The notes under the pieces were generated by a model. It was not told where the DNA came from. It saw nothing but the letters and a program-made list of their open reading frames with translations, and ran no database searches. The translations under genes and the position numbers were made by a program. Positions 32,551 to 63,576 of a stretch of DNA of 64,000 nucleotides are shown in pieces. Positions within the stretch are counted from its first letter, which is position 1, and each line of letters opens with the position of its first letter. Source of the stretch: Candidatus Ruthturnera sp. Tsphm01 (GTDB lineage Bacteria > Pseudomonadota > Gammaproteobacteria > PS1 > Pseudothioglobaceae); the NCBI GenBank assembly GCA_030142985.1, contig CP125320.1, positions 1,121,639 to 1,185,638 on the forward strand, read 5' to 3'.

Positions 32551-32564
32551 TTGATATAAATCAA
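32551..32564. promoter_or_regulatory. Perfect FNR box upstream of ccoN
   Basis: TTGATATAAATCAA matches TTGAT-N4-ATCAA exactly. cbb3 oxidase operons are classic targets of Fnr/Anr regulators under low oxygen. A regulator with the matching E-x2-S-R recognition residues is encoded at 61.4 kb. Confidence 0.85.
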
Positions 32565-45647: not shown

Positions 45648-45786
45648 TAATCATCAAAACACCACCTTTCACCAACTTGTAAACTTTCTAAAAACACTCT
45701 TAGTTCTGCTAGGAGTGGATTTATAAAATTTCCAAGTTGATAAAATTTGTTATTTTTCTAATCATCCCTATTTATACAAAGGTCTC
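45626..45786. mobile_element. Miniature inverted-repeat element (MITE), 161 bp
   Basis: The left end AAGACCTTTGTATAAATA (45626) and the right end, read inward, GAGACCTTTGTATAAATA (45786) are terminal inverted repeats. The flanks TCTAA (45621-45625) and TCTAA (45787-45791) are a 5-bp target duplication. Its reverse complement aligns along its length with the 187-bp element at 23494, including a shared CTAGCAG core and GATTATT near the end. Confidence 0.9.
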
Positions 45787-61361: not shown

Positions 61362-62087
61362 TTATTGGTGCGCGCATTGATTAATTTTGAAAGATATACA
61401 GTTTGATCCAGTCACTTTATCACAATAGCCACATAATTCATGACCATTAGTCAATTTTATTTTTTTATTGTCTAGGGCAATGCCGTCTTTTTTAAGTTCT
61501 GCCAGCGCTCTTGAGAAAGATTCTGGCCTCATACCTAAATAGGCAGCAGTTAAGGATTTTGAATAAGGCAATTTAAATGTGTTGTTAATTTTGCTGTGTA
61601 CCAAGCACCAGCCAACTTTTTCTTTGGCAGTTTTTAGTTGCAACACTTCGGTGCTTAGCATAAGGGATTGTACGTTATCAGCTAAAAATTGAATAATGTT
61701 AAGTGAAAATTGATGGTTTTCTGCCATTAAATTAGCCACCGCCTCTGCTGGAAAATAAAGCATAGTGGTTTTTTTAACAAAATCTGCGGCCACATCGTAG
61801 TTAGGGGAGAAATACATTGGTGAAACAACTTCTTTTTTGCTAATAATGCGCAGTACAATCTCATCGCCTCTTTCGTCAATTTTGGTTAGTTTAAATAGCC
61901 CCTCATAGTTAATATAAAGTTTAGAATGTTTAGTTGTGTTAAAAACCACCATTTCGCCTTTGTGAAACTGCTTAACCTGCATGGTAGGCAGAAATTTTTT
62001 TAAATCTTCTTCTGTTAAGTATTTGAAAATTGGCAGTCTTAATAAGAAATTGTAGTATAGGTTTAGGTGCTTTTTAGCGGGAATCAT
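61362..62087 (-). CDS. Crp/Fnr-family regulator with C-terminal cysteine cluster
   Basis: A 241-residue regulator with an N-terminal cyclic-nucleotide-like beta barrel, a dimer helix and a helix-turn-helix (SLTAAYLGMRPESFSRALAE). The recognition helix has E-x2-S-R, the residues by which FNR reads TTGAT. The FNR N-terminal cysteines are absent. Instead four cysteines lie at the C-terminus (C219, C222, C230, C238 in LCGYCDK...NCISFKINQC). These could bind iron-sulfur or zinc. It is divergent from hemN. Confidence 0.88.
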   Translation of the reverse strand: MIPAKKHLNLYYNFLLRLPIFKYLTEEDLKKFLPTMQVKQFHKGEMVVFNTTKHSKLYINYEGLFKLTKIDERGDEIVLRIISKKEVVSPMYFSPNYDVAADFVKKTTMLYFPAEAVANLMAENHQFSLNIIQFLADNVQSLMLSTEVLQLKTAKEKVGWCLVHSKINNTFKLPYSKSLTAAYLGMRPESFSRALAELKKDGIALDNKKIKLTNGHELCGYCDKVTGSNCISFKINQCAHQ

Positions 62088-62214: not shown

Positions 62215-63576
62215 ATGAGTTTATTTGACCTAGCCTTAATTAAAAAATATGACCGTTTTGGTCCAAGATACACTTCTTATCCAACAGCGAATAACTTTAA
62301 AGCACTGACTCAAGATGAATACCAAGCCCAAGTTGTTATTAGTAATATGCGAAAAAATCCTATTTCGTTATATTGCCATATTCCATTTTGCGATACTGTG
62401 TGTTTTTATTGTGGTTGTAATAAAATCGTTACCAAGGATAAAACTAAAGCTGAACCTTATTTGGAAAGATTGTTTAAAGAAATTGAGCAGCAGGGCGCAT
62501 TATTCAACCATTCACGCAAAGTTGAACAAATGCATTTTGGTGGTGGCACGCCAACATTTTTATCCAACGCACAAATCATTCGTTTAAGTGAGAAGCTACA
62601 AAGCATATTTAATTTTACTGATGATGGCGAATATTCTATTGAGGTTGATCCTAGAGGGGTTGATGAAGACACAATTAAGGCATTAGCGCAAGCTAGATTT
62701 AACCGCATTAGTTTAGGTGTGCAGGATTTTAATGTTGATGTGCAAAAGGCGGTTAATCGCGTTCAGAGTTTTGAACAAACCAAAGCAGTGATGGACTTAT
62801 CTAGGGCGTACGGGCTTGAATCCATTAGTATTGATTTGATTTATGGACTGCCCAAGCAATCAGTACAAACTTTTGAAACGACACTTGATCAAGTTGCTGA
62901 GTTACGCCCTAACCGTATTTCATTGTTTAACTACGCTAACTTACCAGAACTATTTAAACCACAACGCCGTATTGACGTTTTGATGTTGCCATCGGCTGAT
63001 GAAAAGCTGGCTATTTTTAAATATTCAATGGATTTCTTGTTGAGTCAAGGCTATGTGTATATCGGCATGGACCATTTTTCTTTGCCAGAAGATCCGCTAG
63101 CAATTGCGCAAAGTAAAAGGCAACTATATCGAAATTTCCAAGGCTATTCTACTCATGCACAGTGCGATATTATTGGCTTGGGGCTTAGTGCGATTGGGCA
63201 GGTGGGGGATGGTTTTTCTCAGAATGAAAAAAACATTGAGAAATATTACCAAAGAATTGATGGGGGTGAATTGCCCATTATTAAGGGTCAAATTATTAAT
63301 CAAGACGATAAGATTAGGCGTTTGGTGATTATGGATTTGATTTGTCATTTTGAGTTAAGTTTTACTAAAATCGAACAAACTTTTGATATTGTGTTTGAAG
63401 ATTATTTTGCAGACAGTTTGTTTGGGTTGAGCGAGATGGCTGAGGATGGTTTGCTTGAAATAACAAACCGCTCAATTAAGGTAATGGACAAAGGTCAATT
63501 ATTGATTCGTAATATTTGCATGGTATTTGATGCATACCTTGCTTTGAGCAAAACACAATTTTCAAAAACTATTTGA
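62215..63576 (+). CDS. hemN: HemN, oxygen-independent coproporphyrinogen III dehydrogenase
   Basis: A radical-SAM enzyme of heme synthesis, 453 residues. The cluster motif is CHIPFCDTVCFYCGCN. RFGPRYTSYPTANNF at the start and the HFGGGTPTFL block are diagnostic of true HemN. ATG 62215 is preferred to a TTG at 62206. Convergent with lolA, overlapping by 8 bases. Placement beside an Fnr-type gene fits anaerobic control. Confidence 0.96.
   Translation: MSLFDLALIKKYDRFGPRYTSYPTANNFKALTQDEYQAQVVISNMRKNPISLYCHIPFCDTVCFYCGCNKIVTKDKTKAEPYLERLFKEIEQQGALFNHSRKVEQMHFGGGTPTFLSNAQIIRLSEKLQSIFNFTDDGEYSIEVDPRGVDEDTIKALAQARFNRISLGVQDFNVDVQKAVNRVQSFEQTKAVMDLSRAYGLESISIDLIYGLPKQSVQTFETTLDQVAELRPNRISLFNYANLPELFKPQRRIDVLMLPSADEKLAIFKYSMDFLLSQGYVYIGMDHFSLPEDPLAIAQSKRQLYRNFQGYSTHAQCDIIGLGLSAIGQVGDGFSQNEKNIEKYYQRIDGGELPIIKGQIINQDDKIRRLVIMDLICHFELSFTKIEQTFDIVFEDYFADSLFGLSEMAEDGLLEITNRSIKVMDKGQLLIRNICMVFDAYLALSKTQFSKTI

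Follow-up and report, generated by a model that had tools for sequence, protein, structure and literature searches.

The window analysed here, a stretch of 64,000 nucleotides from Candidatus Ruthturnera sp. Tsphm01, encodes a regulator of the Crp/Fnr superfamily that ends in a tail of four cysteines with the spacing C-x2-C-x7-C-x7-C. This tail is a real and conserved feature, and sequence comparisons indicate that the regulator carrying it recurs, sometimes fused to a nitrate-sensing NIT domain, beside the nitrate-respiration genes of distant bacteria. In oxygen-poor waters, sulfur oxidation by SUP05 bacteria is coupled to the reduction of nitrate. The source organism, a marine sulfur bacterium, appears to alternate between the respiration of oxygen and of nitrate by means of a regulator of Fnr shape; the putative metal-sensing cysteines of this regulator are placed at the end of the protein opposite to their usual position.

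The regulator of the window and its cysteine tail

The regulator gene, its domains and its divergent neighbour are located as follows (positions of the window):

61362..62087, minus strand: Crp/Fnr-family regulator of 241 amino acids with a four-cysteine C-terminal tail (open reading frame from ATG to stop)
61716..61973, minus strand: sensor domain (cNMP-binding-like), residues 39-124, without cysteine (PF00027, 27.5 bits)
61431..61583, minus strand: Crp-like helix-turn-helix, residues 169-219 (PF13545, 35.4 bits, cut-off 27)
61509..61523, minus strand: recognition residues E189-S-F-S192-R193, of which E189, S192 and R193 are invariant in 42 aligned sequences
61365..61439, minus strand: C-terminal module, residues 217-241, C219-x2-C222-x7-C230-x7-C238, a spacing conserved exactly in 41 of 42 aligned proteins
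62215..63576, plus strand: hemN, oxygen-independent coproporphyrinogen III oxidase, divergent neighbour of the regulator (TIGR00538, 598 bits)

The assignment to the Crp/Fnr superfamily is based on both domains and on the fold. The match to PF00027 is exactly at the cut-off (27.5 bits for a cut-off of 27.5) and the helix-turn-helix is clearly above its own. The predicted structure has a Crp/Fnr fold; in the fold comparison, A. fischeri FNR (Z 19.0, with 217 residues aligned at an rmsd of 3.1) and Clr (18.9) were tied as best hits. The alignment with FNR extends to residue 225 and that with PrfA to residue 234, and the model is barely covered by this comparison beyond about residue 227. In AlphaFold2 the tail was modelled with pLDDT values of 62 and 59 (residues 221-230 and 231-240) from a mixed alignment and of 87 and 84 from the alignment of the family alone.

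An earlier note, made from the sequence alone, had described the protein as Fnr-type. The fold and the E-x2-S-R residues agree with this description as far as the superfamily is concerned, but the protein is not FNR proper, with 16.1 bits against the NCBIfam Fnr model for a cut-off of 228. The best NCBIfam model is FtrB (NF006901), which also remains below its cut-off (84.4 bits for 211). This cut-off is exceeded by two tail-less, nar-linked proteins (L282, 327 bits; L276, 218 bits) and is missed by all four tail-bearing proteins tested (84-136 bits). The only cysteines of the protein are at positions 161, 219, 222, 230 and 238. The first of them being C161, the N-terminal cluster cysteines of FNR are indeed missing, as the note had stated, and its observation of a cysteine motif at the extreme C-terminus was also correct. 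When the letters of the protein were shuffled 20,000 times, the spacing of the motif never arose.

The source genome belongs to the Thioglobaceae/SUP05 group and consists of a single contig of 1.52 Mb. No Crp/Fnr protein besides the window regulator was detected in it, and no other Crp-type helix-turn-helix scored above the Pfam cut-off. Five weaker matches are present, of which the longest (L083) reads by eye as ParB beside a ParA-like frame and the remaining four are in frames of 53-81 amino acids. A canonical FNR was considered as a second regulator of this genome and rejected, the Fnr model giving no match at 1e-8. The interval between leuS and the regulator contains no open reading frame of at least 60 amino acids wholly inside it, and among 15 loci compared it showed only a 54-bp match to one same-genus locus.

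Conservation, distribution and gene neighbourhoods of the family

The earlier note had proposed conservation of the C-terminal cysteines in close homologues as a check, and they are conserved. In a first alignment, the four cysteines and the E-x2-S-R residues were kept in all 25 rows (two of which, L012 and L013, are alike). In the wider alignment A4, composed of 42 sequences (the others being 21-72% identical to the window protein), C219, C230 and C238 are among the 12 invariant columns, and the tail cysteines are as strongly conserved as the DNA-contacting residues. Outside the tail, cysteine never occurs in more than 8 of the 42 sequences of any column. The single exception to the spacing is the nar-linked relative L257, where Tyr replaces the second cysteine of the tail. 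Broken copies of the same genus were excluded from the alignments, and identical cores were counted once, including in the upstream-site count given below.

In the order, 31 of 83 genomes contain a match at E<=1e-10. Judged by their tails, 18 genomes have a full-length short form, seven have only a distant, mostly long form, five contain broken pieces, and one (G049) gives one weak match. The five genomes with a broken regulator all belong to the same genus as the source organism (G039, G040, G036, G037 and G042; loci L019-L022, L024 and L047-L050); close relatives of the source organism have lost the regulator gene. In G039 and G040, hemN beside the broken regulator is also split between frames. 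The long forms are represented by seven frames of 509-558 amino acids, while the frames seen in G055 and G050 amount to only 279 and 270 amino acids, respectively.

In a sample of the class (369 genomes, 30 loci returned), the tail was seen by eye only in the source genome and in the same-genus G040, and in none of the inspected loci outside Thioglobaceae. In a sample of the phylum (398 genomes), the exact tail was found among the inspected loci in three genomes from outside the class. In the class of G755, 11 of 385 genomes match at E<=1e-20, two of which were already known. Among the twelve other-class loci, the exact tail is encoded in an open frame at ten (L249 starts at a contig end); the other two are L257 and, with the tail in a frame that is broken, L255 from G928. 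L255 was kept in the context count and left out of the tree, of A4 and of the site count. Loci L297 and L258 were left out of all comparisons. Two Ruegeria plasmid matches align across the tail region, yet have no tail. Viral contigs gave 34 pattern matches, none of which is a relative.

The phylogenetic tree was calculated from 88 rows of the core only, the alignment ending before the tail. All 41 family rows, among them L257, fall into a single group separate from 40 tail-less rows, with a support of 93/95 that is short of the level marked in this tree (95 and 80). The 24 short forms from Thioglobaceae group at 100/100. The branching order of the tail-less controls is unsure because of long branches among them, and the tree contained no named DNR or NarR. 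Judged by sequence, the tail-bearing regulators appear as a separate group, distinct from FNR proper and next to tail-less FtrB-like and other Crp/Fnr regulators, which extends across Thioglobaceae (SUP05) and another proteobacterial class. Two relatives without the four-cysteine tail, L200 and L201, show another possible C-terminal motif, C-x2-C-x5-C, which is perhaps a separate cysteine design.

A NIT domain was confirmed by Pfam in eight relatives (L041, L042, L043, L045, L046, L225, L227 and L249) and is assigned by length in L044. It is N-terminal in all five long Thioglobaceae forms scanned (E 1e-23 to 3e-29), and is followed by the Crp/Fnr part and then by the same four-cysteine tail. 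Among the proteins from other classes, it was detected in three of eight scanned. The window protein has no NIT domain according to Pfam. The wide flanks come from six of the nine Thioglobaceae NIT-form loci: in four, inspected one gene at a time, narK-narK-narG and the regulator are divergently oriented, and the remaining two both contain narK, one of them also narG. In the source genome, nar is located away from the regulator; the genes mogA and narK that flank the place of the NIT form in G004 and G062 are present there, and the NIT form is missing. The NIT fusion is a more surprising part of these results than the tail itself.

The gene context of 40 family loci was compared with that of 36 tail-less loci, over at most about 9 kb on each side and much less for some. 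At least one of nar, cco, hemN, nrd (nrdDG), nor or nap is present at 36 of the 40 family loci and at 17 of the 36 controls (p 6e-5), a test that was not blind because the list of markers was made after some family loci had been inspected. The marker genes are found at 21 of 22 short Thioglobaceae loci, at all six NIT loci and at 9 of 12 loci from other classes; at the latter, nar is present at eight, moeA at seven and nrdD at four. Like in the window, hemN adjoins many relatives of the regulator. The "nor" call is based on context and a COX1 match, NCBIfam having no model for that subunit at 1e-20. Taken alone, nar shows no enrichment, being present at 19 of 40 family loci and at 13 of 36 control loci (p 0.36), which indicates that the control of nar is probably older than the tail. 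Since tail-less relatives also flank nar and carry binding sites, neither the role nor the site is special to the tail.

Of the 83 genomes covered in the order, 20 have both a tail-bearing regulator and narG (over its cut-off), five and five have one without the other, and 53 have neither (p 2e-10); all five genomes with narG and without the regulator belong to the genus of the window. The association of ccoN with the regulator is weak (20, 5, 29 and 29 genomes; p 0.015). The genomes in all these counts are related, so the p-values are optimistic and kinship inflates the associations of both narG and ccoN. A second copy of the short regulator is located near napA in five loci (L034, L035, L036, L037 and L051), with napGH-like genes recognized by eye in L035; the copies of the short regulator thus seem split between nap and nor/hemN/cco.

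Predicted binding sites and targets

The earlier note had also reported a perfect site before ccoN, which was found together with a gene identified as ccoN by TIGR00780:

31027..32448, minus strand: ccoN, cbb3 oxidase subunit I, predicted target (658.7 bits, cut-off 583)
32551..32564, no strand assigned: predicted binding site TTGATATAAATCAA upstream of ccoN, a perfect TTGAT-N4-ATCAA whose position is kept in close relatives

The distance from TTGATATAAATCAA to the start of the conserved ccoN match is 108 bp (about 110 bp before ccoN). The window contains 17 sites with one mismatch for 5.9 expected and four TTGAY-N4-RTCAA sites for 0.66 expected, values that none of 100 shuffles reached in either case. 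Among the four, only the ccoN site is outside a long open reading frame. The gap between the regulator and hemN in the window contains no TTGAY-N4-RTCAA site. In the source genome, 24 exact TTGAT-N4-ATCAA sites are present, 18 of them inside open reading frames, so that most are not promoter sites, and six intergenic; the latter include the ccoN site and one in the divergent gap between a dapD-like gene and ccoG (ccoN and ccoG by NCBIfam). The narK gene of the source genome is preceded by the perfect palindrome TTGACCTAGGTCAA. As no other Crp/Fnr protein was found in this genome, the window regulator would be the natural reader of the ccoN, ccoG and narK sites. Inverted repeats with CCAACTTGG-like arms were observed upstream of narK of the source genome (L248, 4519-4880) and at 45670-45742 of the window. 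By eye they resemble a small mobile element, and one is located where two relatives keep a NIT-type regulator.

A TTGAY-N4-RTCAA site is located at most 300 bp upstream of the regulator gene in 27 of 41 family loci, for 0.12 expected from shuffles, and downstream in 11 of 41. The corresponding values for the tail-less controls are 19 of 40 and 7 of 40, the upstream difference having a p-value of 0.12. Since the controls also have upstream sites, the site characterizes the wider E-x2-S-R group as a whole, and it supports the DNA specificity and not the tail. For the close type of ccoN, a perfect site 107-119 bp upstream accompanies the intact short form in 10 of 11 genomes and is absent from all five genomes whose regulator gene is broken (p 0.001; an identical change is shared by three of them). 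It is also found in 9 of 17 genomes without a short-form match (p 0.05 compared with the intact group), a set in which a tenth genome has a site elsewhere, G078 offers only 115 bp and G066 has a NIT form. The DNA specificity of the regulator and its role in respiration can be considered well supported. Genome-wide site counts were rejected as evidence: the source genome has 24 sites compared with three for the reversed control, but the excess is similar in genomes without the gene. In the order, TTGAT-N4-ATCAA outnumbers its reversed control in 82 of 83 genomes, whether the regulator is present or not (the counts are equal in G047), and the reversed pattern may be a poor control for such counts.

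Proposed function and comparison with known systems

The kind of function proposed in the earlier note is reasonable. The protein, its conserved tail, the grouping of the family, the sites and the gene neighbourhoods are observed; we infer the dimeric state, the DNA binding, the cofactor, the signal and the direction of regulation as follows. A homodimer would bind TTGA(T/C)-N4-(A/G)TCAA through the E-x2-S-R helix. The cysteine module of 25 residues, placed right after the DNA-binding wing, would most likely hold an iron-sulfur cluster, whose build-up or loss in response to O2, NO or redox state would alter DNA binding, in the manner of Bacillus Fnr and unlike E. coli FNR. In the source genome, the regulator would control ccoN, ccoG and narKGHJI; in relatives, the short regulator would work alongside NIT-fused copies or be replaced by them. 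By analogy with characterized proteins, an iron-sulfur cluster in the tail is rather probable: the C-terminal [4Fe-4S] cluster of Bacillus Fnr and the C-x2-C-x7-C of anamorsin make it plausible. The proposal as a whole, a one-component regulator of microaerobic and nitrate respiration whose tail carries an iron-sulfur cluster (or zinc) and which is switched by O2, NO or redox state, is likewise favoured, with some reserve. Points against it are that tail-less relatives share the linkage to nar and the sites, that site counts do not follow the presence of the gene, that the gap between the regulator and hemN has no site, that the perfect ccoN site persists in genomes without a short form, that close relatives have lost the gene, and that four cysteines would also suit zinc or disulfides.

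Excerpts of a SUP05 proteomics study report that, in strain EF1, Nar was detected only without oxygen and that Cbb3 was higher in oxic growth (PMC6509183). The latter speaks against a simple anaerobic activation of ccoN. The regulator may therefore activate nar and repress cco, or the EF1 copies may differ.

Other explanations of the tail have to be considered. It could be a zinc module with a structural task, making the DNA-binding domain more rigid, sensing being then N-terminal, or directed to nitrate in the NIT fusions. Zinc would agree with four cysteines that include a C-x2-C pair and with the good confidence of the tail prediction, and the presence of the tail both with and without a NIT sensor may indicate a shared structural part; however, neither His nor Asp reaches 30 of the 42 sequences of A4 in any column of the sensor domain, many family loci consist of oxygen-controlled genes, and the C-terminal cysteine extension of Bacillus Fnr is described in excerpts of PMC3520743 as binding a [4Fe-4S] cluster. 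The zinc module is doubtful to us, though worth keeping in mind. It can overlap with an ordinary regulator of DNR/NnrR or NarR type, responding to haem/NO or to nitrate/nitrite, in which the tail would be a lineage ornament; the likelihoods worded here are not meant to sum to one. That DNR is the third-best sequence match among solved structures (E 8e-12), that nar-linked relatives without a tail exist and that NarR is described as sensing nitrate/nitrite without a cluster (PMC8139620, in excerpts) agree with such a regulator, which is nonetheless unlikely given the conservation of the tail cysteines on par with the DNA-contacting residues and the lack of any alignment column with His in at least 30 of the 42 sequences, leaving no conserved His haem ligand in view.

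Redox-active cysteines are mentioned within the superfamily for PrfA and FixK2 in parts of PMC12937710, and the tail could in the same way be a thiol switch forming disulfides in O2 that alter DNA binding; the four-cysteine spacing fixed across two classes (41 of 42) exceeds what disulfides need, and we regard this switch as improbable. Finally, the window gene could be decaying and no longer important, as suggested by the broken copies in five same-genus genomes. This is very improbable, since its full-length frame, four cysteines and recognition residues are intact at 72% identity to intact relatives, and since the ccoN site of the window is perfect, whereas each of the five genomes with a broken gene has at least one mismatch there (the same change in three).

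Compared with these explanations, the iron-sulfur sensor remains our preferred reading. A bolder version of it, to which we give slightly less than an even chance, is that of a separate proteobacterial Fnr-like family with a C-terminal four-cysteine iron-sulfur sensor, which replaces FNR in some SUP05 genomes, including the source genome; its NIT-fused members would be single-polypeptide gates that sense nitrate through one terminus and O2/NO through the opposite one and switch the divergent narK-narGHJI operon. The available excerpts of PMC6509183 name no regulator of the switch between O2 and nitrate (neither Fnr, Crp nor the word regulator), and the tail regulator offers a concrete candidate for it in SUP05, with sites and a domain logic. 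The tail would also represent a second C-terminal cysteine design within the Crp/Fnr superfamily, and the NIT fusion makes signal integration in one protein testable.

The window protein shares with FNR of E. coli and A. fischeri the fold, the E-x2-S-R residues, the TTGAT-N4-ATCAA site and the kinds of target genes. It differs from them by the missing N-terminal cluster cysteines and by its low score with the Fnr model; Gram-negative FNRs are described with an N-terminal cluster in the accessible parts of PMC12937710. A second FNR-like family is present in Thioglobaceae (L123-L138), with N-terminal cysteines (C-x2-C) and Val in place of the Glu of E-x2-S-R (V-H-[IV]-[SN]-R); in four genomes that belong to a single genus, its distance from ccoN is about 0.8-1.2 kb.

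The nearest models and structures, FtrB and DNR, connect the protein to the NarR/DNR/NnrR/FtrB-like regulators, and the linkage to nar is shared by tail-less relatives; these relatives, as far as inspected, have no cysteine module. DNR and NnrR sense NO through haem and are not known to have a cysteine cluster. The window protein has the cysteine module, and no His column of A4 reaches 30 of 42 sequences. NarR controls nar in addition to sensing its signal without an iron-sulfur cluster (PMC8139620, in excerpts); in the present family, nar is found at less than half of the loci and not at the window copy, and the cysteines are present. NasR is described as a one-component nitrate sensor in which a NIT domain is carried by ANTAR (PMC8199190, in excerpts), whereas in relatives of the tail family it is carried by a Crp/Fnr protein with the cysteine tail. 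ArnR of Corynebacterium controls narKGHJI and has a [4Fe-4S] cluster on cysteines towards its C-terminus, but in this NO-relieved repressor a winged helix domain precedes the sensory domain, which is C-terminal, a layout unlike Crp/Fnr (PMC12343034, in excerpts). RedB of Rhodobacter was set aside as a comparison, the words "cysteine" and "CXXC" being absent from the accessible text of PMC9603854. Among the matches listed in the literature covered, mostly other than subscription papers and partly in excerpts, no account of a C-x2-C-x7-C-x7-C tail or of a NIT-Crp/Fnr fusion was found.

The M2 motif of anamorsin, CX2CX7CX2C, binds a [2Fe-2S] cluster according to excerpts of PMC8251831; its C-x2-C-x7-C part, common to the tail, makes the tail spacing compatible with iron-sulfur binding, although the protein is unrelated and the final spacing different. 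The closest parallel in design is the Bacillus-type Fnr (B. subtilis, B. cereus), also a Crp/Fnr regulator with a cysteine-bearing C-terminal extension, in which the last three cysteines and an Asp hold an oxygen-labile [4Fe-4S] cluster (PMC3520743, in excerpts). As described there, its spacing is C-x2-C-x4-C plus Asp, and the window family is set apart by its four cysteines. A C-terminal cluster in an Fnr thus has a precedent in Bacillus, from which the present tail differs in spacing and in lineage.
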